In this document: positions 30,466-64,000 of the stretch, one piece after another
Numbering within the stretch: position 1 is the stretch's first letter
How the letters are laid out: the number at the start of each line of letters is the position of its first letter
Assembly (NCBI GenBank): GCA_010093705.1
Contig: MU006106.1
Coordinates: forward strand, 523,086 to 587,085
Origin: Patellaria atrata CBS 101060
Lineage: Eukaryota; Ascomycota; Dothideomycetes; Patellariales; Patellariaceae
Length of the DNA: 64,000 bases
Direction of reading: 5' to 3'
The notes under the pieces: model-generated
What the model was told of the DNA's origin: nothing
Seen by the model: the letters and a program-made list of their open reading frames with translations, nothing else
Database searches by the model: none
Translations under genes and position numbers: made by a program

Positions 30466-30753
30466 CAGTTATAGTTATTATTATAGTTATTATTATAGTT
30501 ATTATTATAGTTATTATTATAGTTATTATTATAGTTATTATTATAGTTATTNNNNNNNNNNNNNNNNNNNNNNNNNNNNNNNNNNNNNNNNNNNNNNNNN
30601 NNNNNNNNNNNNNNNNNNNNNNNNNNNNNNNNNNNNNNNNNNNNNNNNNNNTTATAGTTATTATTATAGTTATTATTATAGTTATTATTATAGTTATTAT
30701 TATAGTTATTATTATAGTTATTATTATAGTTATTCTTGTAGTTATTCTTGTAG
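30466..30753. repeat. 12-bp AT-rich tandem repeat (unit TTATTATAGTTA) interrupted by an assembly gap
   Basis: Perfect copies of the unit flank a run of 100 N on both sides, with two slightly diverged copies (TTATTCTTGTAG) at the right edge. The array continues in phase of type on either side of the gap, so the gap is probably unresolved array. Any frame through it reads Tyr-Ser-Tyr-Tyr, which is an artefact of the unit. Confidence 0.95.
30552..30651. other. Assembly gap (100 N)
   Basis: Exactly 100 ambiguous bases, a conventional placeholder for unknown length, within the 12-bp satellite. Confidence 0.95.
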
Positions 30754-31188
30754 ATATCGCATTGATGTTGGGACGGGGAGAAGTAGAAGCCTGATAGCCT
30801 CCAACCCGACGAAGCTGTTCATTATCATTAGGTTACGGCCTCATAGATCCTCCAACATCCGGCGCCCTACGCTATCAAGGGTCAGAGGCTCCCTTTGCCC
30901 CAAACGAACGCCGGTATTTCGGCTCTCGCAGCAACCAGAGGCCGGTGCGGCGTCAATGATCCAGAGTCAACCTGGAAATGTCTCTGCTGACTTAATACTT
31001 TTATAAGTAAACAACACCAACCTCATCCTAAGTATACCTTGTAAGATCAAATACTCATATCTGTGAGCCATTATTCTTCTCTTCTGAATTGAATTGAATT
31101 ATATTGCATTGCTTTACCTCACCTTTACCTCTACTCCGAACAACTCCCCTCATCCCCCCCGCATTCCTCTAAGTCCCGCGCCGCCAAA

Positions 31189-47331: not shown

Positions 47332-50300
47332 TCATAGGTCAAGAAGGGAAGCAAGAGAGTCAGACATATCATTTTGCATTTATTCCCACTAGCTGACCCT
47401 TTGCTCTCCTATCTTAGCCTGCTTGGCATAATTTCCTTTGTTCTGCTTTGATCTCTGTTATTCTGCAGCTATATTCCCTTTCTCTCACGACTTCGGAAGC
47501 GGCTACGATACCTGGTGCTTATTTGGTGTAATGGAACCATTTCTGGCGTGCCTCGGGTCTTTAACCCTTGGCTTTCTGGCTTTTTGTACAATACTCTCGG
47601 ATTGGTCTTCCTCGTCCCTGATGGATCCTTTCTTGACATCCGTCCTTTGCCGTCTTTTAATGCCGTTATCTTGGAACAGCATCTTGTCGGCGTACATTTC
47701 AGAAAAGTTACACGACTCTCTTAAACGGATTTCATCCCAACTCCATAATTCGGTCCAGACGACTTGTTCCCCACAACCTCTCTTATGTCTCTAATGAGCA
47801 TTACGCCGATCACCTGACGACTTTCCTGAGGCTATTTACCTTACCTTTCTGTCCTCTGCTACGCTTGTGGCATTCTCCACGTCATCCTATCACCTCGCTG
47901 AAGCAAATGGTCATACTGGACCAACTTATGAGCACATGTTCACCGCTCATGTCATCGTTGATCATCGCTGTCTCTGGCAGCGGCCAGATCAGTCTGGACA
48001 AGTTCTGATTGTTACATCGTGAATTGATCGTTATCTACTCTTTAGATATAAGGTCGTTTATCGCATGAGTACAATTGATCTGTCTGGTAGAAGAAAAATT
48101 TTTTTAAAAAAAAGCAATGGAGGCATGATTGGATGGTAACAATCAATTGTACGGACGATCTAGAACCGGTAGTTGTAGTTATTTCAATTGACAACATCTC
48201 CTCTTTCTTGCTGTGCGTTGTCATCGGCGCACACTCTCTTAGTTGTCACAGGATGTTCTTGCGGTGTGATGTGGGCTTGTTGCTGACGTGTCCTGGCAGG
48301 AAGGAAACCTATTTATGTCCCTTCCTCCTCTCAAATCTGCTTCCCTATTCTTCCAACAACCAAGCAAACCAACAGATAGATTCAATTCCAACTATTATTA
48401 GTGGGACATGGTCGCAGCAACGCTTCTAATGAGTGCTCTAGCAACCAATAGTCTACATGGAACATCCATTTTACCCTTAAGTTCCTTTTTTGGATCCCAT
48501 ATTCCTTAGAAGTAGTTATAGTCTCTCATTCGACATATCGCCCCTTCTAGTCCAATTGTCAGACCACCTACTGACTCATGCAGATCCAATTCCCAGACCG
48601 CTTCATCATGGCAATTCATTTCCATCTGCAAGAGTATTTTCAATTCGTGTCGAATCTAGAGGTGGCACTTAGATGTTTACCATCATCATCAACCCTCCTA
48701 GACAGAACGGTCCTCCTCAGCATGCAACTAGCATATACATTCGCACCACGTAGCCCCTGACCTTAAATGGAAAATACCATGCATAACACAGCTCCAACTG
48801 TCGCTAGTTTTAGACCTTGAATGTTAGTTCCAGAATATGGAAACGCGCATTTATCGGATTCTGCGAGTTTTCGCTGCGGAGGGATCAAGTTTTATTCTTC
48901 TCTCCGCTCGTAAATCCCAGTAGGGGGCCTATTTCTTGTTCTCCGCTCCCTCTATCCAAATTCAACGATTCGGATGGCTCGTGTATGACCAACGTCATTT
49001 GTACAGTTGACCATTTCCTTGGACGCTTCGTACTAGAGGCGCTACCCAGCTGCGAAAACGCCCCAATTCTGCTGCTCCACGTTCGATAAATGGCCATAAT
49101 ATCTTCCTTCCTTGTCCGATTATTTAACAGAACTATCAACATTACGCCCATTCCCCGCCCAAGATATATTCGGATTCTGCACGGAAGAAATTCGGCGAAA
49201 TAGACTCTATATATTTGGCTATGTTCGGGCTCAGCGACTGATTAGCGGTTTATTGCTCGGATGCAAGCTCTCTCATACTCTTCTCATATACCCCTTTTCT
49301 ACGAGTCACTCACAAATATTTATGGTTCCCGCGGCCTGGTATTACAGAAGAATGGAGATTACTGCAGGATTATTGAGAACTAGTGATGAACCCAAACAGT
49401 CGGAACTTTTACTACTGTGTTGGTGTTTCCGGAAGATACGTGTTCATTGCTCTCTTTGGTACCTTTCCAAATCCGCAAAATGAGATTGTCGCGAACATCA
49501 TTGTGGCCGCTAGATTCAGATGCAAACAGAAGCATGGCAAGTTTCAGTAATCACCCTTACTTTGTGCTCAGCCTAGAGCAGAATTACCCCAGGACTCCCT
49601 GTCTCGATAATCTGGCTTGATAGATACCTATTCTCTCCTGCGTGGACTGGCTCCACCTTCAGTACTACTGGCAACTCTTCAGTATCACACATCTATACAT
49701 AGAGAAACGTATTGCTTTTTCTTCGATTGGAGAGTAACATATCTCAGCCTTTCCGTTTATCTCTGCATTGGAATGCAGCTGTTAGAGTTCTCTTCTATTT
49801 ACGCTGATTAATACTGACTCCAGCTTATACCATATCCTTTTATCTAAACCTTCCGCACAGAGCATTTCGAATTTAGGGCTACAGGAGCAGCTTTTGCGAG
49901 ACCCTCTCCGGCCCTAACAAATCAGAACCGAACGAACAACTTCATTTTCTTCCTCAGCGCCTTAGGTATTAGTCTAGGAGACAACAAGCCTTTTATTATT
50001 CCGTGTGAACTGGAGAAGAATTGCCGCGTCGTGAGCGCAAACATCTATTGAAGAATCGGGCGAGACACTGCATCGAATGAAATCTGGTCCACTATTCAAC
50101 CATTTAGGATGGGAAATTTCTTTCGGATCCATTCTGTTGTAGGATTCAGTTCTGCTCAACTGGTTGTTCAGTGAAGCCAAGTTTTGTATCTCGCTTCCCC
50201 TAAGCGGCATCGTCCGTTGCGGCGAAAAGTATTGACTATTTAAGAGTCCATCTCATCAATGTGTTCACATTCTCGACGCGGTCTTAGACTACTAGTTCAT

Positions 50301-53290
50301 TCATTACCCCAGGAAATAATGTTAGTGCTTAACGGGGGAACTTCTGGCTCGTTTGGACCTCCAGGAGTTGCGGTATATCACAATTATCGGTCGCGAAACC
50401 GAAAACAACCATTATCATTCAAATACTCATTAGGGATGTTCCCGCTGGCCGCATCGGTTCGAACTGATTTCTTTAGCCTCGCATTGGGGGACAAGATCAA
50501 TAAAGGGATTTGAAATGATTGTTTCGCTGGTGGCAAAGTTAACATGCTTGAGACTATGGAATCGTCATAAAGCTTAGAGATGGCCAGAAGGAGTTATTCA
50601 GTCAGCATCCTCTCAGCTCCGGATAAGGCTGAATGCGTTCGCGAACCGCCTGATTGATTTCAATATGCGCCGATTTGACCATGGTATACACACCTCCCTA
50701 GGCTCGATATCTCGGCCACAACTTTCATACAAGATTTGTTTTTCTTTCAGTAAATCATTTCATGGACGGCTCTAGATGCGCAATACGACTTTCATTGTCT
50801 TCCTACCACTGTAGCGAACCAGTTCTCGGGTATTTATTACCCTCTTACCCATAACCGAATGGCGGTGGGAGATTTGAGATTAGCAGCAAATGTCATATTC
50901 ATGAACACCCACTGTTCCCTTTGTGGGCCTAGACTCCGTCAAGGAATTGGATTCCATAAAGACAGAAGACTATTGCTAGCCCTAGTGGGAGTCTTGAAAA
51001 TTTGATCGTGGCCATGCTATTATGATAGCGGTTTGGAGATACGATTTGTGATTTCTGCGACTTGCTTCAGACATTCGGTCGAGTGGTTGAAAGGGACCGG
51101 AATTCGAGTTGGTCTATGATCTTGAGCCCCTCAAATTGGGTTTAAGACAAGACAACGTTAGATGACACGGGTTACCTACGGAATATTTATGCCGTTTGGA
51201 GGCGCGCAGTCATCTCTCAAACATTTACATATTTACATTGTTAAAAACACACTTCCGTCCCGTAAGAACTGGAAATCACTGGTCAATTCTCGTTCGGGGT
51301 TTAGATGCGAAATTGGCAGATTCCTAGTTCTCTCCCGTCTTGTGGGGACTATCACATATATTTTCTTCCTGGGGCGGAAACAGAGATGTAAGCTCGTCGC
51401 GGTTAGGGGATCGCGGACTGACTGATAACTTTTTGGCAATTCCATTCTGTGAGTGGTGACTATCCCTATAGTTTTTGAGATCAAGAGATTCAGTACTCAA
51501 CCAATTTGGATGCAGGGAACTTTACTGCGTTCCCTCTTGCAACTGTATAATCGCTTGTTCCCGAAATGACCAAAATAACGGCTCACGAGTGTGTCTCAAG
51601 AGCTATTGGGAGGTTTTAGTCCAAAGAATGCGGCTCTACGAGAGCTATATTTCCGCGAGATGAGACTCTATGAAGCCGCTGTGTGAACAAGACCATCAAA
51701 AAGGAACGACTTTTACAAGACTTGGGGATGTGTATTTTCCCGAAGGATTCGGATTTAATCATCATCGCGGCGGCCAAACTTACACATTAATGTGATCATT
51801 TAAATGAGGTGTTAAGATCTGTATCCCTAATTTGTTTGAAAGATCCGCCGTTTTTCGCTAATAAACAAGTAAGTGGAGCAAATAGTAGGAGGTGCCACTG
51901 AGTACGAAAAATAAGTAAGGTTATCGAAAGAAACAGAGGGGAAGGAGAGTGGTTTTAACGTCGAAGATTGCTGCTTCTGTAATTTTCGGAGTCTATGGAA
52001 TGTGAGCGGCCTCTAGTAATTGTGTTCCAACTATCTAGTCCAGATGCTATCTACAATCAAGATAAAGAAGAAGAGAAGAGTCTGAAGGCAGGTTTGAGGA
52101 AAATATTACTGGCTGATCTTCGGATGCAGGGCGCGCTCATACCACTAGGCTCTAGCCTGTTACATGGAACAGTTAGCTTTCTTGTTATCTCCCTTCGGTC
52201 TTGGTAAAGAATTGATATTTCCGTATGACCCTGTATCGAATTGGATAATAAGTTAAACGACCCGATTACCTCCAGAAGCCAGTCCTTCAAACAGTGTTGC
52301 TAGGCAAGGTCTTTTCGCAAAAATAGCTCTTCCTTTCAAGATGTCTTCCAGTCATTACCGATTCGGTCATTCACGTATATTCCTCAACTATCCCCTCAAC
52401 AACGTGATATGTGTTCCGGATCGGATCGGAATGACATGGCGCAGGATTCTGGAGTTGTTGCTATCATTTGCATATACTTATCTCAGTGCGAGGCCTGTGT
52501 CATCGTAGCTAACCTCTCAGCTTCGAAGCTAGGGTGAGATTCACCCGTTTTTGTTTAACCGAAACATCGCAAATTGGATTCTTCTTTCTAGAAATATATG
52601 CAGGAAGTGGGTCTCGTTCTCTTGATGTCATGGCCTAGCATTGTACTGCACTACCCGCAAGATACATGAACGGGTCATTCTCTTTCTGGTTCTCCTTAAC
52701 CACAGAACATTCTCAATCATTTACTGTCTCTCGACGGTTAAAGTATTGTCATAAATACACGCATGTTGAACAATATTCATCGGACTCGTTTAGGAAGTTA
52801 GAAGACCTTAGAACATGGGTTCAGAGGAAAAGTGACACCAAAGAAATATTGCGGAGCAGTCGCGGAGACGGTGAAAGAGATTCTGATAAAGAAATATATC
52901 TTACTCAAAATCCTCCTCTGGATATTTCAACTTGGCTGGGTCGGCCCGATTCCTGGGAACATGTTACCGTAGCTATCTCAAGGCATTCGCGAGAGGGATA
53001 ACATGAGGAAACCGGCCATTTTGGGATTCGGCCAACTTTTCCCAACACTACGTTCGGGAATCAGGACTGTAGCAAAAACTTCCCAAAGTTCTAAAGAGCG
53101 AAGATTTTTATGCCAATATTCTTCGAACAGTGGCTTGCCTGAATCTAATTCTCTTCTTGGAGCGCCAGTCTCTAATCAATCTACCCTTCTCAATCTCCAT
53201 TTCTTAGGAGATATTGTCCAACGCACAGGGCTCGGGATTCAACATATTCTAGGGCGCTGGACATTGGTGAAATTGAGGGTCACGCAAGGT

Positions 53291-53330
53291 GGCTGGATAT
53301 CAGATGGCTGGATATCAGATGGTTGGGGAC
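53291..53330. repeat. 15-bp tandem duplication
   Basis: GGCTGGATATCAGAT occurs twice in a row, exactly, and starts a third imperfect copy (GGTTGGGGACCAG). Confidence 0.85.
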
Positions 53331-56300
53331 CAGGATAAGTGAGATGGTTAAGCAGGCAATACTATAAAATAGCACAGGCACCCACTCCAGATAGTAGACA
53401 ATCAATGAACACTCTTACCCTTCTATCTACTACCTTAGCTCATCCCTGTGTGGATTTTATCAGACATTAATTGAGATGATCCTCGTAATATGATCTCTGT
53501 TGACAACTGTTCTTCAGATCAACCGTCTTATTCCTACTAATATTGCTCAGTTCAACTGGCAAGTATTGCTTGAAATTACCGCTTTGGAATTGTGTCTCTA
53601 TTAGAACGGAAATACCGTGAGATGAAACCAAATAACAGAATCTATTGATAAGCATGGGTATCAAAAATAACCAGAGTTTGTTTCTATGACAGGACAATGG
53701 CCCCTCATTCTCGGAAAGCTACACACTCAAAACGCTTCCTGCCCTTTAAGCTAGGGTTTAGTATCCCCTGGTGGAGTTAGTTGTTATGGTTCAACCTCAG
53801 ATGGAAGCTGAAAGGTATATTGCTATATGTGCATGAAGCTTAAACTTAAGGAAAGAAAGTGTTAAGACAGCATATGCTGTTCTGCTAAAGTATAGTATGA
53901 CTAAGCCGCTGGATCATCCAAGGCACTTATACCTATCGGGTCTAACCCGTGACATTGGTCACTCCTACTGTGAAACGGAGCAATCGCTGGTGTAGAACAA
54001 GGATAGAATAAATTACGAAACCACCTGTTTTCTAAGAGGACTCCACAAATAATGACTTAGATTACAAAGTCTGCCTTCAAAACATACCCTAGACAGGAAA
54101 TATTTTCCACTCTGGTCCTTCGGTTATCATTCGAATCCAATTCTCCGGTTTCTGGTCTCGCGGTTTCTATGGGGAGAAGAGGCGCATTCCTTCACGAGGT
54201 TATTCCTATTGAGCATGTTACTTCTCCTTTTCGGGATCTGTTGTCCTGTTCCTTCCTTTCGGGCCTCCAATCCCAGGAAGAATATGTGTTTACCATAATC
54301 ATGATTATTATCCGCTGACTACGATATCATTGGACCTTTACTCATAACTGATCGACATACTAACACAATTATTCTACTTCAATATCCACCACGAATTCTT
54401 CTCCACAATATATTGTTCCGTCTTTGAATCACGGAAGTAGCATGAAAGTATTCGTTTCCGCATTTGGAATAATATCCCCCCCCTCCTCGCGACTCACCCC
54501 GATCCGTATGAATGTATACCACGGCCTATTCCCAGCGGATCAGTGCCGCCGAAGTCAGCTAGCATTCTTCCACTCTGCTAATCTTATAACCTCTGCTCTC
54601 ACCGTTCTCCTGTTGATTCTGGTTGCGGAATTTTTAACCGCAACAACATTCTCGGAAGGCTCGAGGTTAATTGGTAGGGTCTCAGTTCTCTTACTGAGCT
54701 TAAAGACCATTACTGTCCTGTACATTGACGGACATTCGTATTGTCTAACCTTCGTGCTGTTCGTCCTGGTTATTCCGTCAAGGTTTTATTAAGAAGCTTT
54801 AAATGTGTTGAAGCAACGAAGTATTTGCATTGAAGAGCTCTTCTCGTCCGCAGATCCCTAATTTTTTCGGCCTTTAGATCATACCTTTCTCCTTATACAC
54901 AGCTACATACCTATCACACGATTAGGCATCCACTAATTGCGAGCATGGCATTGCATGAGATGTGCCTCGCACTTTGCTTGCAATTCTCGTCCTTAAATAC
55001 GGTGTGCCAGAGAGTTCGTATCGGCTATACTGGAAAGTCTCTATTATTGTTCAACTCATATCTGTGCTATTGGAATATTGAAAAGAATGTGCTCGGCCAT
55101 CGCACTCTTTCCTTTCTCCAGGAAATGAACTTTAGAAGAGAGAGAACTGAATTAACACCCCTAACGGATCAGGTGTTCCATTGCTCTAGTTCAGCTTGAG
55201 TAGCACTTAGAGGTTTAGGAAGGAGAACACAGAAATAGGATCCTAGCCCATTTCTGTTGGGTTTTCTGCCCTTTTACTCTCCCAGGAAAATAGGAAATAT
55301 TCCGTTTGAGTATAAAGTGATAGATAGGTCCGCTCGAAGAGTTGCGTGAATGTGGCTTTCAGAACAATACAGAGAAGGGAGAATCTCGTGCTGAGTACCT
55401 CCATACTTTGTCCGTTTCAAAGGAGAGAAACGTACGTTCTAAACTCCCATTATGAGCAACGAAGAGTAGCACAAATGTGGGACCCATTGAGACAACCCAA
55501 CCAGACCCGTTCCGCGTTACGGAAGAGTCCGGCGCGAAACATAAAAAAGCTTTTCTTTGAACTTATTGCCACCTCTGCGTGCTGGATTGTTTGAGCCTAG
55601 CAACACATTCCCTCATACAGAATCATTGGTAGTGATTAAAGATCTGGCGACTCACAACGACTACAAAAAGAAATTGTGGTGTGGATGAGGGCCTAGCTCT
55701 GGAGATTTCATTCATCAAGGTTTTATTCGGCGAACGAGTGGTGAACATACAAGAAGAGACAACAAGTTAACTATATTCATTCTTCCTGCGTGCTAGAGCT
55801 TTCGAATCCTAGAAAGACCCCTCTATTCTCGAATTATGTCGCGTGATGGTTATATCCGTCTGGCCCCGGGGAGGTGAAGATGACATAGGCAGATACTTTT
55901 ACACAGCAAACATTCTCCGCTGTGAGGGAAACCTGATACAAAATGGCAGATTCTCCGTCCCGTCTATTAGATCCTCAAAATTCCTACCTTCGAGCGTTAT
56001 TCTCCTTATCCATTGCCATCAGCGCTTTCCACTTACCATATTCATGCAGGACGCGGTATGAACGTATGAAAGATAACCAAGAACGTCTCTGATTCTCTAG
56101 GATGAGGGAGGTCTGAGAAAAAGAGTGTTAGAGAGACAACAAGAGAAGTTATACTTTCTATTCTCCCTGCCGGATTCTCGGAAGTCTAGCACCATAGACA
56201 GACATAATTTTCGATTCTCCGTGGATCAAACTAAATCTATTCCTGTCCTCGGGTAGCTATCCGATGCATTTTCTGGATGCCTCAACCATGAGCCGGTATC

Positions 56301-56371
56301 CCATCTCGGATCTGTGTATTCCGTCCCTGTGCGGACTGTTACATTAGAACTCAATACCACAAAATCAGTGG

Positions 56372-56461
56372 TTATCATTGGAGCTCATGTGCGTTCAACT
56401 CATTGACCTCCAATCATCATCATTGGGGCACTTGCACACCCAACTCATTGGCATCCAATCA
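56372..56461. repeat. 45-bp imperfect tandem duplication
   Basis: Two adjacent 45-bp units (56372-56416 and 56417-56461) share TCATTGG at the left, CAACTCATTG in the middle and TCCAATCA at the right, with scattered base changes. The units also contain the inverted pair ATTGG/CCAAT. Confidence 0.75.
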
Positions 56462-57302
56462 CATTCCGGTACCAACGTCAAGAGCCGCTTCATTCCACGA
56501 TTCGTGATTCTCTAGGGAGAAAACGGCATCCATCAACCTCCCGGAGATATTGCGGGGCTCCATAGAGACACAGACGTTGAGGTGATTTTGACCCCGTGCG
56601 CCGCAGCACCACCACCCCAGCAAGCCATTGTTGGGAGAGAAAATTCGAGACGTTCTATTGGCGAAAGTTGATTACGGCATGGCCATTGAGATCGGGGGGA
56701 GTTGGACGGAAACTCTGTCCCTAGCTTTTCAACACCATTTCGGGGTTGAAGAGAAAACCGCCAACAAAGCTGAGAAGTGAGCATTCGGCATTCTTTACAT
56801 TCAAGATGATCAGGGCCGTTGAACACGACGTTAGGTTAAACCTACGCTCACCTTATCATTTTGCCCCGTGTGTCGCTGGAGCCAGTGTCAATGAACACAA
56901 CCAGCACATTGAGAAATTATCCCGTCCGCTCCTCACAGATTTCATGGAATAGTAGGGGCTTCTAGATCTCGTATTGTGGTGGTTCTTTAATGCTTGGGAT
57001 TCACACCAATCAGCCCTGGGATGCACTGGGAACTGAACGGTGCTGGCCGCGTAGGGCCTATTGTCCCCCTGGAGCTGACGCATTGCGCCGTACATATTGC
57101 GGATAATAGCGTATTGAACAATATGTCATTCATTTGGAACATCACCTTACTTATCGATATCTCCTCCGCTAATTAGCATGAGAAAAGCTTTAGAAATATA
57201 GCATTTCCAAAGAACCAACTGAAAGAACTTAAATTGATACTCAAAACCGGCAGCAACTTCATTAATCCACATCACACCTCGCTTTCATACGCACAAGGAT
57301 AC

Positions 57303-58568
57303 CTATTCCCACTTTAGCTCCTTCTTCTTCAACATATCCATTCTCCCCTCTTCAAGCATCCTCTTGGCGGTAACCCTCGTCGGGTAGTTCCGCATAAACA
57401 TATTCGTAAAATGGGTTCCATAATGGATCCCCTCCTCCTCCGGCCGCTTCAATGGTCTCATTACCGCCGAGAAGTTCGGTTCGTGGAAGTAGGCAAGAGC
57501 GAAGCGTTCGCGAGTATTGAGGCCGACTTTGTGAGGAGTCGAGGGGAGGTAGGAGTCGGTAACGTATTGCATCATATCGCCTGTGATGGTGTAAGAAAGC
57601 TATAGTCTTGGGAAATGTTTCATTACATTTGGGGAGATGCTATTGGACGTACCTGGAAACACAGTAAATACGCCTGGAACGGGAGGGACGTAGACCCATC
57701 CCTCGTCGTCCTCCTTGAGGCCGGCGGCACTAGTTTCCCAGTTCGCGACTTTCTCACCGTCGTAAGGTGGTCTGATGTACAGTCCCCCAATATGCTCTTG
57801 CGCGGCGATAACGAGCAATCCGTAGTCTGTGTGACTCCCGATTCCGCGGCCGGTTTTCCCTTTGCCGTTCGTCTTGTCAATTTGCGGGAAACGGAGGACG
57901 CGCATGTGATGCCAGCCATCTCGAGTAAACTTCGAAAAACTATCTATTGGTATGTTCAGACCTAGGGCGATGAGTTGAAGGATTTTCTCGCCTCCGTCGC
58001 CGAGGTAGGCCATGTATGCATTCATGGTATTCTGCATTTCCTCGGATGGCCAGGGGCATGGACCATGGCAAGGCCACTTCTGCTGAACTCGGGGATCGGA
58101 GAGAGGTAGATCCTTCGTCACCGTAAAGATTTCGGAATAGTCGGCGACGCCATCGGTAATCTCTTCTCCAGAGGCTATGTACCCGGAGAAGCTTTGATCA
58201 TCAACATATTTCTCCTTTTCACGACAGGGACGGGCGAAGAATTGTTTGCTGGCGTTGAAAGCGTTGTCGGCGAGGATTTGGTCCACTGGATCCATAGCAA
58301 CTTGTAAAATTCCATCTTTGTGCCAGGCGTCAATCATAGATTTAGCGAGCGCTTTGTCTCCTGGTGTTCCTTCGACGACTTTGGGGAGCACATATGTCTC
58401 AAAGTTTCCCACAGTGGCCTTATGTAGAGGAGGCATGTCCAATAAGTAATCAGTCTTAGTCGCGAAAGATCTAGTCCTTCTAGAAAGGGATAGGGGAAGT
58501 CGTGCGAATAACGCTGGCGACCTTAGCCGCACGTGGAGAGCCGACATAGGTAAAATTCCGGAGAACAT
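57303..58568 (-). CDS. efe: 2-oxoglutarate Fe(II) oxygenase of the ethylene-forming enzyme (EFE) type, with probable mitochondrial presequence
   Basis: EFE turns 2-oxoglutarate into ethylene and CO2 and also hydroxylates L-arginine. Exons 58568..57653 and 57580..57303 give 397 aa. From residue 55 it follows the Pseudomonas EFE end to end. Landmarks are SGYIASGEEIT, DYSEIFTV, WPCHGPCPWP, DGWHHMRVLRFP, GIGSHTDYGLLVIAAQ, GGLYIRPP, STPHKVGLNTRERFALAYFHEPNF and HYGTHFTNMFMRNYP. Iron ligands are His246, Asp248 and His322; 2-oxoglutarate Arg331. Residues corresponding to the arginine pocket are kept (Glu136, Thr138, Arg223, Tyr249, Phe337, Arg369), with Ile137 for Val. Residues 1-39 have six Arg, no acidic residue and an RSF|AT cleavage-like site, a typical mitochondrial presequence. 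Met45 would start a form without it. Activity is inference: some fungal homologues may only hydroxylate. Confidence 0.9.
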
Positions 58569-59618
58569 AATGTATCTTTCTCACTTAGTGTGCCCCTTGA
58601 TAATTGAGAAGTTAAAATCTTTGAATCTTTCTACTCGTAGGTCTCAAGTTGTTTAAAACGAAGTGTGCCCATGGGCGCAGTTCAAGCATTTGAAATAGCT
58701 TATCAACCCCTGACCACACCCTTCGCAGAGTCGGTATCCATCCCTAAGACAACTCTCTTGGCCTCAATAGGCCATTCTCGCGTTCTGGGAAAGATCTCCA
58801 GGAAGAAGGTTGCACATTATCCTCCATGAACACATCGTGATCATAGGCTCCAGAAACGTGGCTGGTATAGATCGTGCTGGGGAGGGCAAAGAAAATGATC
58901 TATGATATGGTTCAGACCTCATGGCTCTTACGATGCATTCAACCACAACTCGGTAAATGAGGTGATGTTAAGACATGAACCTGTCGATGTTTGAATTTCA
59001 ATATCTTGGAAACGTACAAATAACAGGTAGGAGAAGCATTTCGCATGTAGGCGAGGCTGAAAGACTATCTTCACACATCCCTCCTTCGATATTCTGTTCT
59101 CCCCATGGTTGGAGATATTTAAAATGTTTTCTTGAATAACCAGATGCAACAGCTAAAAACGAGATGGGGAAGATGTTTTGTGGCTTGGACAAGAGGGGAA
59201 GATGGTAACTAAGCAAGATTCTATCACGCTCGGTATCTTTCTGTAGCACACTGAGGGTGAGGTTGAGAATTATACCCTCCTTTGGATTAACTTTGCGGGC
59301 AAGAATCAACATTGCCTTAGAGAACTACTTTGTCATCTGCGGACCATGGCACCCGGACGCCCGGCGTGTAACAGGAAAATGATGTTAGTTTAGAGATAAG
59401 TGATCGACGAGGTGAAGTCGAATTAGAACTAATAGGCGAGAGAAAGCGCCATCATGTGACGTCAATGAGCGCCGCATCTATAGCTTGGAGAGCTCTGAGG
59501 TAAGGTATACTCACCTTGAAATTCTCAAGTCTCAACTGCATGCCCTACAGATGGTCTACACTCCTCCCGGTCCTGTATATATCTTTATTCAAAATTTTCA
59601 CTTTATATCCTTACCGAC
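58569..59618. other. Divergent intergenic region, EFE-type oxygenase / PAF-AH-type lipase
   Basis: About 1.05 kb between the two start codons. No gene and no named site that I can support. A CCTGTATATATC box lies near 59572-59583, about 40 bp before the lipase start. Confidence 0.45.
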
Positions 59619-61411
59619 ATGCTATGCTCTCTTCGTTTTTCTAATCTGAAAGTGCGTTTCACACTTCGTAATATCCTTATCGTCCTCTTGTCTCTTTCCC
59701 TCTTGAATTACTTCTTTATCAATATGCCACTTTTGACCTCTAGATTACCTCCATACTCTGGACAGTATGAGGTCGGGATCATAGATCTGGAGGCTGAAGT
59801 CCTTGAACCCCGTGTCTTTAGCGATGCTGTTGGAATTAAGGGAGATCCTGTGCTAAAGGTGAGCCAGTACCCTTTTGAGCATCACTGTTCTCCCTGGCCA
59901 TACGACCAACGTCTCATCCTAGCGTGGATGGATGGTATCTACACGGAACATATTCCGTGCTATCTATCATCGTGACATATCCGATTCTAAAAATGACCCA
60001 GCTCGATACCGTTTTCTTCACCCTCTTCTATCCAGCTTCCCACCACCGGGCAGCCGCCAATCGTCCACCCCACCTCTGGCTTCCTCGCCCTATCAGTCTC
60101 GTCGGTGAAGGGTATGCACGCTTCGCTCACATCTACTCGAAGGTCATACATCGTATCTTTACGTTTTTCTTATGGCTGATGGTTGGCTCCACCGAAATCC
60201 CCGCGCTACCTGATGCCCCGATTTACAAGCCCCTCTCGCCGAAACTGACGGTGAATGACGATACTTCTTCGTTCTCCAATATTGAAAGTGGCGATTGCCC
60301 AAAGTTTCCGGTCGTTGTGTTTTCTCACGGGATGGCCGGTATGCGGACGAGTTACACACACTACTGTGGAGAAATTGCAAGTCGCGGGTACGTCGTTGCG
60401 GCCATTGAACATCGAGATGGAAGTGGGCCGGGTTCTATCGTCAGATTTAAAGACTCACCGGATAGGAAAGTGTTGCACATGAACAAGGAAGACCTTCTGT
60501 ATATCATGCTCTATGGTTCCTCTTTCTTTTATGAATATTGACCTTCTGACGTATTGCAGTCGCGAGCCGCCCTTGCTAGATTCAGTAGTCAAGCAGCAAG
60601 AGCTCGCATTCCGCCAAGCTGAAGTCGAGGAAACAATCAGAGTACTCAGAGACATCAATGACGGCCACGGTGCTCAGATCCAACGGGAAAACCCGCGTCT
60701 TGAAGGCTTAGGCTTTCCAGACTGGGAGGGGAGGCTAGATTTGACCCAGGCGGTTATTGCAGGTCATTCCTATGGCGCGACACTTGCGCTTCAAACTCTT
60801 AAGGCCGGACCAAACAAACTGCGGCCGTTCAGAGGTGCGATTATCCTAGATCCGTGAGTTATCCTTTCCCGCAGAATACGCTTGGTTGCTAATTTCCTCA
60901 CTCCAATAGAGGAAAGGCCAGTGGACCGTTAAACCACGATATCAATGTTCCCACTCTCATCATTAACTCAGGTACCTGGACAAGTCGTCAAACAGACTTT
61001 TATGGAAAGCCGCACTTCCAAGCAGTCAAAGACCTTATCCAAGGTGTCATCAGTGGTGGCAAAGCTGCGTGGTTCGTTACATTGTGTAAGCAATTCCAAT
61101 CCCGCCTCGTCATAAGCATAAGACTGAATAAGAATCTAGTGGGCACATCCCATCCTTCCTGTACCGATGCGCCGATCATTGCGAAACTGCTTTTGAAATT
61201 GGTTACTAGCACTACCTTGGGTTCTATGAAAGCATTGCAGAAGTATGTAGAGATATCATATGACTTCATGCAGTTTTTAGACGACGGCAAGAGACGTAAT
61301 GTGCTTACTGAGAACGCTACGAGCCCTGATGGACCGCTTGGTGAAGATAGAGGAGAAAGAGGTAAAGACGTGACGGGCTTTTGGCAAATCCATGTCGCTC
61401 CTGAAAGGTAA
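59619..61411 (+). CDS. Platelet-activating-factor acetylhydrolase-family lipase, membrane-anchored
   Basis: Alpha/beta hydrolase of the plasma/intracellular type-II PAF-AH family, which releases short or oxidised acyl chains from phospholipids. Exons 59619..59858, 60002..60498, 60560..60853, 60910..61085 and 61140..61411 give 492 aa. An N-terminal signal anchor lies at about 13-36 (RFTLRNILIVLLSLSLLNYF), so the domain probably sits in the lumen or outside. Family blocks are TVFFTLFYPA, FPVVVFSHGMAGMRTSYTHY, GYVVAAIEHRDGSGPGS, the nucleophile Ser316 in IAGHSYGATLAL, and RGAIILDP with the acid Asp. The expected histidine lies in the last exons (GTSHPSCTDAPII fits the family's GxxHxxxxD block). 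The splice sites were chosen on phase and family fit. The 143-bp first intron is the longest in the window. Confidence 0.88.
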
Positions 61412-64000
61412 CATGATTTGTAGATGTACATACTGTAAATATGAAAAATGAGATGAAATGGCATGTGTTGCGAAACTTCAATCATTGACAGTTGAGCAAG
61501 ACATTGAATATATACGAGAGAATTAGTGATTAATATCAACAAAAGCGCGGAATAAAAACCCGGATATGCAATGTTTCGAACTAGATTATCTATGAATTAA
61601 TATATTTCAGTACAGACGTTAACAGTATCCTAGGATTTATGATGGAAGTTAAAAATGAAGAATATAGAATCACCTTTTATCATTTAGGCATACCTTTGAT
61701 TATTGAGTTTACCAGACTGATTCAACAACAACCTGATATTGATACAGATGGTAGGTCATCATTCTACACTTTGCGGAATCTGGTTTGGGACGTACCTTGG
61801 GAAAACGATGTAAACCTTTCTGTATGAAATGCACAGAGCAGCTATATCCCGAAGTAGGATGACTGCAGAACAGTTTTCGGCAAATGGTAGTTGTTACTGA
61901 AGCTTGTGTTTAAAATGAAAAGTTACGTCAGCTATGGCCTTGAAACTTCTATAGGAATACGGCCCGAATTTTCCGTAGAGGCCAGCCAGCTAGAAGCATA
62001 GAAGGTAATCTAGTTGAGATCATAGAGAGTTCCATTGGAAGGCCTGGTGAGACAAATTAATCCGACCTTCCTAAGCATTGATCGACGTAAGCAGCTTTTT
62101 GAGTCTGCTATCCATGCGCAAGGTAATGATACGGTAGCTGTGGCCTTACAAGAACACCTGACTCACGAAAGGTTCCGTCACTGCCACACTGTAACCAGAA
62201 CTTCTGGTGTCGCATTGACGACTCGGCTATGAATGCCTATCGACCAGAATCTGGGTACGGTACGGTAGATGGGGTCGAACTAACTCCCCGCATTGAGATC
62301 TAAATCTGCCGGTTTAAAGTTTGAAACCAAGTGCTGCATCTTGAAAAAACACTGTTCTTATAGATGTTCGTTGATGATATTGCTATAATTTGATGAGTTA
62401 TGAGCTTATTAACCTAGGATTGGACGGACATCGCGGTCGCTCCCGGTCCTGTAGAACGAAGCTTGGACAATCTGATGGCATTTGATATTTCGCATTATCA
62501 TAGCAGTAGCTTGTGAGACAAACTACCGTAACCGGGGGCTTATTTGCTAGTTATTGGACGCCCAAGGATGTCTGGATAGAATAGTACGAAACGCACTTCT
62601 TCACTGGGGAGTAGGGACCGACATACTTGATAGATTCTACGCAGGATGAGCTTCTGCAAGCCGTTTTGTGAAGGTGTGAACAAGAGAATTGGCAGCAACT
62701 AGAAAGGATTCCAGCTTACTCTACTGCAGGGAGACCAAAGTTTGCAGACTCACACGTGTTTGCGTATCGGTTGATAAGTTTCAACGCCAGTTGTCATTCT
62801 TTGCATAGCTAGTGAGTCGCACCAGAACGAATCGGTTGCTTGCGGTTTCTGTGTAAGGTCATGATGTCTCTTGGTCCTTATGTGAGAATGTGAGTAACGA
62901 TGCTGAAACTTTGATCATCGGGAGGTTGAAGAACGGAAGGTAAAAGACATATCCGACAAGATTTGTAGTGGTTTTTGGACGCACTCGACGCGTCTATGAA
63001 CACCACTTGGCCGTTCATCAGATCTTCAAATTCTGCCATTTTCCTACAGGGTAGTAGATGAGTAAATTGTCATGATTGGTCAAAATATTCGGCAGATGCA
63101 GAATTATGTAGAATAAACGTGGCAGCCACTCATTGCTTTTGGAAATGGCAACGGTATGGGTATTTTGGCAAATCAGCAATAAGAATTATTGCGATTTTAT
63201 ATCATTTTAGCATGATTTACTCCACACTCAGGAGTAAAGACTAGACAGGCCCAAGGACTTTTGACGATGAACAGCCGGATAGAGTTCTTGATGAGAGACA
63301 GCGAGGAGTCGTGAAGTAACTACTGCCGGTTATTGATGTCTCGACGATAGGCTTGTTTCATGATATGTATTGTACTCCCAATTGTGCCTTCACGGCGCGA
63401 ATTCCACCAAAAGGAGTAATCCGTTATGCTGTCTCAATACTTTCGTGAACGCAATTCGCCCTGGTTACTGGGTCTCTTTTTCGGTGACTTGTGCTGTACC
63501 GCGCTATTGAGGTCTCAATTATCACCCATTCCTATGTCCTATGCGGATGGTATAGTACAGTATATAGTCTGCCTTGACGATTCGATACGTAGAAATAAGT
63601 GTTGGCTTGACACCGTTGATGTATGACTTGATTCATGAGTTGTCCTAGAGATTTAAAGAGTTCCTAAAGGTCGTAGGGCCAAGGGGCGTTTTGGGGCCAC
63701 CTTTTGGCGTGATGGGGCCAAGTGGGCGTCCCTGGCGGTACCTTGCTTTGGCTCTCCTTGGCCGATCTTTTTGGGTCATTCCCCTGTCTCGCTCGCTCTC
63801 CTGAAACTGAAACACCACGCTCGCTTCTTTTTTGGAGAGAGTGAACTGTCACTCCACTACCCCATATCCCACTGTGCTCCCACCGTCCCGATCGATGTTG
63901 TTGTTGACCTCGTCCGGTGCACACAGCAGTTGACAGGACCGAGAGGACGATAACGGGCAATTCCATTCTCCTTAGATCTTTGGACTACCCTCAACGAATT
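61412..64000. other. No gene recognised to the window end
   Basis: Open frames here (for example 61639-61827, 62035-62232, 63426-63626 and the minus frame 63664-63966) are short and lack domains or splice partners. A GTACGGTAC word lies at 62255-62263. A composition change to GC-rich, pyrimidine-patterned DNA after about 63670 could be the leader of a gene that begins beyond the window. Confidence 0.4.

Follow-up and report, generated by a model that had tools for sequence, protein, structure and literature searches.

A gene of the ethylene-forming enzyme family in a fungal genome

Within the window, which is the whole 64,000-nucleotide stretch of Patellaria atrata DNA analyzed here, we found an intact minus-strand gene whose product is a member of the ethylene-forming enzyme (EFE) family, retains the iron- and substrate-binding residues of that family, and starts with a presequence-like N-terminus. 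On the whole, it is quite probable that the protein is a fungal EFE, the counterpart of EfeA of Penicillium digitatum, that resides in mitochondria and makes ethylene. Its entry into mitochondria, its binding of the substrates, its formation of ethylene, and the ratio of ethylene to P5C are inferred from the two characterized enzymes, those of P. digitatum and Pseudomonas strain PK2, which are reported to convert 2-oxoglutarate (2OG) to ethylene and CO2 with L-Arg and to hydroxylate L-Arg at C5, giving guanidine and P5C (PMC12060275). The sequence-only reading had proposed either an ethylene maker or a relative with arginine hydroxylase activity, and both are activities of EFE itself according to the same report.

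In the proposed mechanism, an N-terminal address would take the enzyme into mitochondria, where H246, D248, and H322 would hold the Fe(II) that binds 2-oxoglutarate together with R331 and R223, while a pocket formed by E136, T138, and R369 would seat L-arginine, as the conserved contacts suggest. O2 would then be used to fragment 2-oxoglutarate into ethylene and CO2, and in a minority of turnovers L-arginine would be hydroxylated at C5, yielding guanidine and P5C together with succinate.

Gene structure and genomic neighborhood

The gene runs on the minus strand from an ATG at 58568 to a stop codon ending at 57303, and its spliced product has 397 amino acids. The sequence-only reading had the same limits and the same spliced length, and the strand and the intron, which it left unstated, are now placed. 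Exon 1 (57653–58568), recognized from its open reading frame, the splicing, and homology, runs from codon 1 through codon 305 and ends after one base of codon 306; it is followed by a phase 1, GT–AG intron of 72 nt (57581–57652; GTACGT...CACAG) with an in-frame stop, and by exon 2 with the stop codon (57303–57580), which encodes the third iron ligand, the 2OG arginine, and the C-terminal part of the L-Arg site. Because 72 is divisible by three, the two exons share a frame, and the unspliced frame hits the intronic stop; in the ORF list, the gene appears as two pieces. Splicing yields FPG-DMMQ, which lines up with FPG-DIMQ in P. digitatum EFE and FPG-DILQ in PK2 EFE, the junction lying inside the FPGD..Q motif, and nothing in the relatives corresponds to the 24 codons of the intron. 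A chance match or mis-splicing was ruled out by this homology spanning the exon junction.

Among the ORFs tried, the nearest domain-bearing neighbor was a PAF-acetylhydrolase-like gene on the other strand (59879–60854, plus strand). Nine ORFs out of 33 listed for 47.3–57.3 kb and one out of 12 listed for 61.4–64 kb were searched against Pfam at E 0.01, none with a match, and no ethylene-linked gene cluster was seen among the ORFs scanned. The approximately 10 kb 3' of the EFE gene (47400–57300) looks gene-poor, and the longest repeat in 48000–64000 was a 43-nt pair at 56374 and 56419 (77% alike). Elsewhere in the window, other genes include those with POM152 nucleoporin and GH72 glucanosyltransferase domains, which together with the intron mark the DNA as fungal. 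A 12-nt tandem repeat (TTATAGTTATTA; 30469–30757) flanks a 100-base run of N (30552–30651) on either side, which is an assembly gap inside the repeat array. The tRNA and Rfam scans were empty.

Family membership and phylogeny

When the spliced protein was searched with phmmer against solved structures, the best match was P. digitatum EFE (9eir; E 2.2e-163), followed by nine Pseudomonas-type EFE chain sequences (E 6e-119 to 1.5e-116) and, after a sharp drop, by 9ovh (6e-34), a chain also named EFE, and PaIPNS (6jyv; 9e-29); ACC oxidases matched at approximately 2e-4, over a C-terminal stretch only. Similarity to bacterial EFE had been described in the sequence-only reading as starting at NFETYVLP; the likeness stands, and in the phmmer alignment to P. 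digitatum EFE it begins earlier, at residue 24. The Pfam domains DIOX_N (77.6 bits) and 2OG-FeII_Oxy (48.6 bits) both scored above their cut-offs, and no NCBIfam family was matched at E 0.001. In the core, the window protein was identical to P. digitatum EFE at 221 of 341 positions (64.8%) and to PK2 EFE at 184 of 331 (55.6%), and the two proven enzymes were identical to each other at 187 of 332 (56.3%), so the window protein and P. digitatum EFE are about equally near to PK2 EFE, and the window protein is nearer to P. digitatum EFE. With solved relatives at 56–65% core identity, the EFE fold of the predicted protein can be considered safe, and its membership of the EFE family is, on sequence grounds, almost certain.

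For comparison, a scan of bacterial and archaeal genomes yielded 47 loci, of which two with discontinuous frames (L045 and L046) were dropped from all alignments and trees. The remaining 45, together with PK2 and P. digitatum EFE, made up 47 EFE rows, to which six plasmid genes were added as the outgroup (53 sequences in total). The start codons of the bacterial rows, assigned by a script, are approximate, and two loci (L013 and L040) were used from after the last stop in the matched stretch, ahead of the conserved part. The two omitted loci are EFE-type genes of Streptomyces stelliscabiei and Erwinia mallotivora, in which the matched stretch is not one continuous frame. Ten Lentzea genomes carry EFE genes (L001, L003, L004, L007, L008, L014, L015, L017, L019, and L021), as do Frankia, Myxococcus, Pyxidicoccus, several cyanobacteria, and Hahella, and the iron, 2OG-arginine, and main L-Arg-site residues are present in the EFEs of all these groups; none of them is known to be a plant pathogen. 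In a plasmid collection queried with exon 1, all 217 records had <60% identity and none covered 80% of the query in one place, and among viral contigs, none of the 30 stretches that fitted the two peptide patterns used encoded a relative.

The window protein retained 86 of the 90 positions that are invariant in the 47 EFE rows, departing at PK2 positions 4, 257, 324, and 327. Leave-one-out controls on six of the 47 rows gave 86/90 for P. digitatum EFE, 86/88 for L029, 86/87 for L005, and 86/86 for PK2, L009, and L042; as the 86 are kept by construction (invariant in 48 rows), only the departures are informative, and the four in the window protein equal in number those of P. digitatum EFE and outnumber those of the five bacterial rows tried (two in L029, one in L005, and none in the other three). 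An HMM built from the 45 bacterial EFE rows and PK2 EFE scored the window protein at 501 bits and P. digitatum EFE at 499, whereas among the outgroup rows it gave 365 bits to that of Streptomyces clavuligerus and from 109 down to 53 to the other five.

The maximum-likelihood tree joined the window protein to P. digitatum EFE at 100/100 and split 49 rows from five outgroup rows at 100/99, and the fork that excluded the S. clavuligerus row was at 88/38. The outgroup branches in this tree were very long, and four AU tests did not formally reject a position of the window protein beside the outgroup rows (p 0.101, 0.463, 0.128, and 0.186), so the tree by itself is not decisive. The last three p values were obtained from trees without L044 (a partial locus with unread stretches), L049, L050, and L053, the second of these trees also lacking L051 and L052. 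When the fungal pair was constrained to group with the S. clavuligerus row, in a tree without L044 and L049–L053, the result was slightly better than that of the free search (AU p 0.583), and fungal EFE may be either nested within the bacterial sequences or basal to them. The S. clavuligerus row itself is an EFE-like gene on plasmid pF1D35B (L048:2992-4116) that adjoins a globin-domain gene and an Rrf2-type regulator; its first half is identical to PK2 EFE at 77 of 168 positions, and it has a proline at the position of the first iron histidine and several other pocket changes. It may possibly be a non-catalytic or re-purposed relative of EFE. The comparisons proposed in the sequence-only reading (alignment to the Pseudomonas and P. 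digitatum enzymes, comparison of pocket residues, and a tree) thus upheld its placement of the protein as an EFE homologue: the scores, the pocket residues, and the best tree all agree on it, with the AU tests not decisive.

Active site and substrate pockets

Alignment to solved EFEs located the first two iron ligands in H246-T-D248 (57825–57833, minus strand, as are all the codons given here), the third in H322 (57531–57533), the arginine for the 2OG carboxylate in R331 (57504–57506; R277 in PK2), the L-Arg-binding lid loop in E136-I137-T138 (58155–58163; E84-V85-T86 in PK2), and the arginine for the L-Arg carboxylate in R369 (57390–57392; R316 in PK2, whose role is reported in PMC12329707). 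The residues that the sequence-only reading had named were all found, namely, the iron triad H246/D248/H322, R331 and R223 for 2OG, and E136, T138, Y249, F337, R369, and Y371. Numbered as in PK2 EFE, these sites of the window protein read H189, D191, H268, R277, R171, E84, I85, T86, D91, Y192, F283, M313, F314, R316, N317, and Y318. Of these, E84, T86, D91, R171, Y192, F283, M313, F314, R316, and Y318 are identical to PK2 EFE (10/10), and we take D91, Y192, F283, and Y318 to belong to the L-Arg site. The other residues of that site have been named in published work (E84, T86, M313, F314, and R316 in PMC12329707; R171 in PMC12060275). Across 11 L-Arg-site positions, nine have the PK2 letter and the remaining two, I137 and N370, have that of P. 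digitatum; the change N380C in P. digitatum EFE, which introduces the PK2 letter at position 317, is reported not to have altered the ethylene/P5C ratio significantly (PMC12060275).

The hydrophobic 2OG pocket, which an ancestor study found to be needed for effective ethylene formation (PMC12329707), is identical in the window protein at all five positions (F175, V196, A198, A279, and A281). Four of these (F175, V196, A198, and A281) are invariant in the 47 EFE rows and occur in one, none, none, and one, respectively, of the six outgroup rows, whereas position 279 varies within the family (Ala in 23, Thr in 21, and Ser in three of the 47 EFE rows). Position 280 is Leu in the window protein, Cys in PK2 EFE, and Phe in P. 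digitatum EFE; Leu280 was also found in the rows from Scytonema sp. NIES-4073 (L005) and Nostoc sp. ATCC 43529 (L009), which are taken to be the genes for those strains' EFEs that were purified and measured for ethylene kinetics (PMC12060275).

Fungal loop insertion and N-terminus

From R171 to H189 (PK2 numbering), the window protein and P. digitatum EFE each span 24 residues, whereas the remaining 46 EFE rows span 19 or 20. A five-residue insertion in the loop before the first iron ligand is thus common to both fungal rows and absent from the 46 bacterial ones; in the window protein, this loop contains KTNGKGK (residues 232–238; 57855–57875, minus strand). The longer loop is the one described in the P. 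digitatum EFE structure (PMC12060275).

The N-terminus, to which the sequence-only reading had not drawn attention and which we add here, resembles a mitochondrial presequence. Its probable extent is residues 1–36 (58461–58568, minus strand), as judged from composition and from the published P. digitatum counterpart. The first 40 residues contain seven Arg/Lys and a single acidic residue, at position 40, and the most amphipathic 18-residue N-terminal stretch starts at residue 21, with a value reached by four of 379 stretches, itself included. The R-S-F/A at residues 34–37 resembles a mitochondrial processing site and is a possible cleavage motif. In P. digitatum EFE, a mitochondrial presequence was predicted by MitoProtII with a score of 0.95 (PMC4202696), and that enzyme is also described as mitochondrial in PMC12060275. 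By analogy, the window EFE is probably sent to mitochondria.

Ethylene output and alternative explanations

Johansson and colleagues compared two ethylene makers with a homologue from Penicillium chrysogenum that is strongly similar to P. digitatum EFE and made no ethylene in yeast, and identified ten differing positions (PMC4202696). At seven of these, the window protein has the maker's letter (L22, V172, A199, D213 as in P. digitatum, E235, F278, and I304), and at three it has the non-maker's letter (Y for V212, M for I254, and V for I322); among the 47 EFE rows, V322 occurs in 19, whereas neither Y212 nor M254 occurs in any. In PK2 EFE, A199G, I304N, and the V212Y/E213S double change were reported to lower ethylene, and I254M and I322V to have no significant effect on it (PMC4202696). 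The ten positions do not decide ethylene output, since placing all ten letters in the inactive P. chrysogenum enzyme is reported not to have conferred activity (PMC4202696). On balance, the window protein is likely to form ethylene, as P. digitatum EFE does in vitro, with a reported kcat of 25–32 per min; for PK2 EFE, the reported ratio of ethylene to P5C is 3.8 (PMC12060275). Trace output alone would not prove EFE function, because trace ethylene was reported in one study for the distant relatives PaIPNS and Din11 (PMC12329707).

The precedent of the similar but inactive P. chrysogenum homologue lends some weight to a reading in which the protein, although of the EFE family, no longer forms ethylene and acts mainly as a mitochondrial L-arginine C5-hydroxylase (yielding P5C and guanidine) or as an uncoupled 2OG decarboxylase. 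The three non-maker letters fit such a loss, in particular position 212, which belongs to the double change that lowered ethylene in PK2 EFE. Against it, the seven maker's letters include A199 and I304, at which the non-maker swaps lowered ethylene; I254M and I322V alone had no significant effect in PK2 EFE; the 2OG pocket is still hydrophobic; and all active ancestors kept both activities in the ancestor study (PMC12329707). We regard such a loss as rather improbable. A related possibility is an in-between fungal form with a full EFE pocket and several non-maker letters outside it, in which the balance might be shifted toward P5C and guanidine in mitochondria. We hold this to be fairly unlikely; if true, it would imply that fungal EFE is arginine-catabolic in some lineages and would show where ethylene output is lost.

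Two further readings, a decayed or unexpressed gene copy and a different kind of oxygenase, carry much less weight. Exon 1 has a weak codon bias (0.771 in frame versus 0.729 and 0.749 in the other frames), as a decayed copy might, but the measure is itself weak in this window, where two of the eight reference stretches used to make the table score no better in frame. The spliced frame is without a stop, the intron is canonical, and 86 of the 90 invariant positions are intact, so we consider decay or silence of the gene very unlikely. Domains of the DIOX_N and 2OG-FeII_Oxy type are common to other 2OG oxygenase families, and these domains and the AU tests, which were not decisive with their long outgroup branches, would allow an isopenicillin-N-synthase-, homoarginine hydroxylase-, or ACC oxidase-like enzyme that merely resembles EFE. 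However, PaIPNS and the ACC oxidases scored at 9e-29 and approximately 2e-4 versus approximately 1e-118 and 2e-163 for EFEs, identity to the five distant outgroup rows was only 26.5–28.1%, and where PaIPNS and Din11 depart from PK2 EFE in the L-Arg site, the window protein follows PK2 EFE, except at 85 and 317, where it agrees with P. digitatum EFE. On the scores and pocket letters, these families were ruled out, and we give this reading almost no credence. The preferred reading thus remains a mitochondrial, ethylene-making fungal EFE.

Comparison with known systems

The closest known system is P. digitatum EFE (EfeA; PDB 9EIR/9EIS), which shares with the window protein the iron triad, the 2OG arginines, Ile85 and Asn317, the loop insertion, and a presequence-like N-terminus, and whose stretch GYIASGEEITDG.ADYSEIFTVTKDLPL is identical in the window protein except for one residue. 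The two differ in that the window protein has Leu for Phe339, near the 2OG pocket, is five residues shorter in the stretch 284–304 (PK2 numbering), and has Y269 and M308 versus A274 and I313; in addition, the window gene has one intron, whereas the P. digitatum gene has four predicted exons (PMC12060275). PK2 EFE of Pseudomonas savastanoi/syringae (PDB 5V2Y and others) is alike in the iron triad, the 2OG arginines, and nine of the 11 L-Arg-site positions, but it has no presequence, a loop shorter by five residues, and V85, C317, and P93 versus I, N, and S. The Scytonema and Nostoc EFEs share the pocket residues and Leu280 but are bacterial, lack a presequence, and have approximately 56% identity to the window protein. 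The PaIPNS-like and plant homoarginine hydroxylase-like enzymes are reported to have Lys or Thr at position 316 and a less hydrophobic 2OG pocket (PMC12329707), whereas the window protein has R316, F175, A279, and A281 and does not show this altered site.

In published work, the P. digitatum enzyme is called the first characterized eukaryotic EFE (PMC12060275), a tree of 105 fungal EFE-type sequences placed Penicillium beside Aspergillus and Colletotrichum, with Fusarium and Verticillium in another clade (PMC7558865), an EFE-type enzyme is predicted from a gene of Cladosporium fulvum, and one paper mentions a described EFE in Fusarium oxysporum. With fungal EFE homologues already published in number, the window EFE is not a new kind of thing; a literature search for EFE with Leotiomycetes found nothing. 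Ethylene is a plant hormone, and whether the protein makes it would matter for possible effects of this fungus on plants. Another source of ethylene, the KMBA route, depends on light and methionine. In P. digitatum, an efeA knockout made no ethylene above background in culture, and EFE is reported to supply most of the ethylene in culture and during late infection, without being needed for infection itself (PMC7558865), so a virulence role should not be assumed for this fungus. If the presequence-like start is real, a mitochondrial location, beside 2-oxoglutarate and P5C metabolism, would not be peculiar to Penicillium.

The other fungal reference is the inactive P. chrysogenum (rubens) homologue XP_002562422, which starts at a position homologous to the P. 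digitatum start (PMC4202696). Compared at the published positions only, it has Y212, M254, and V322 in common with the window protein and differs in M22, T172, G199, S213, D235, Y278, and N304 (L, V, A, D, E, F, and I, respectively, in the window protein). The window EFE has the whole pocket, yet approximately one-third of its core positions are unlike those in P. digitatum EFE and its letters at the ten positions are mixed. Its activity would test pocket residues as predictors of ethylene formation, and it offers a test case between an active and an inactive fungal homologue.
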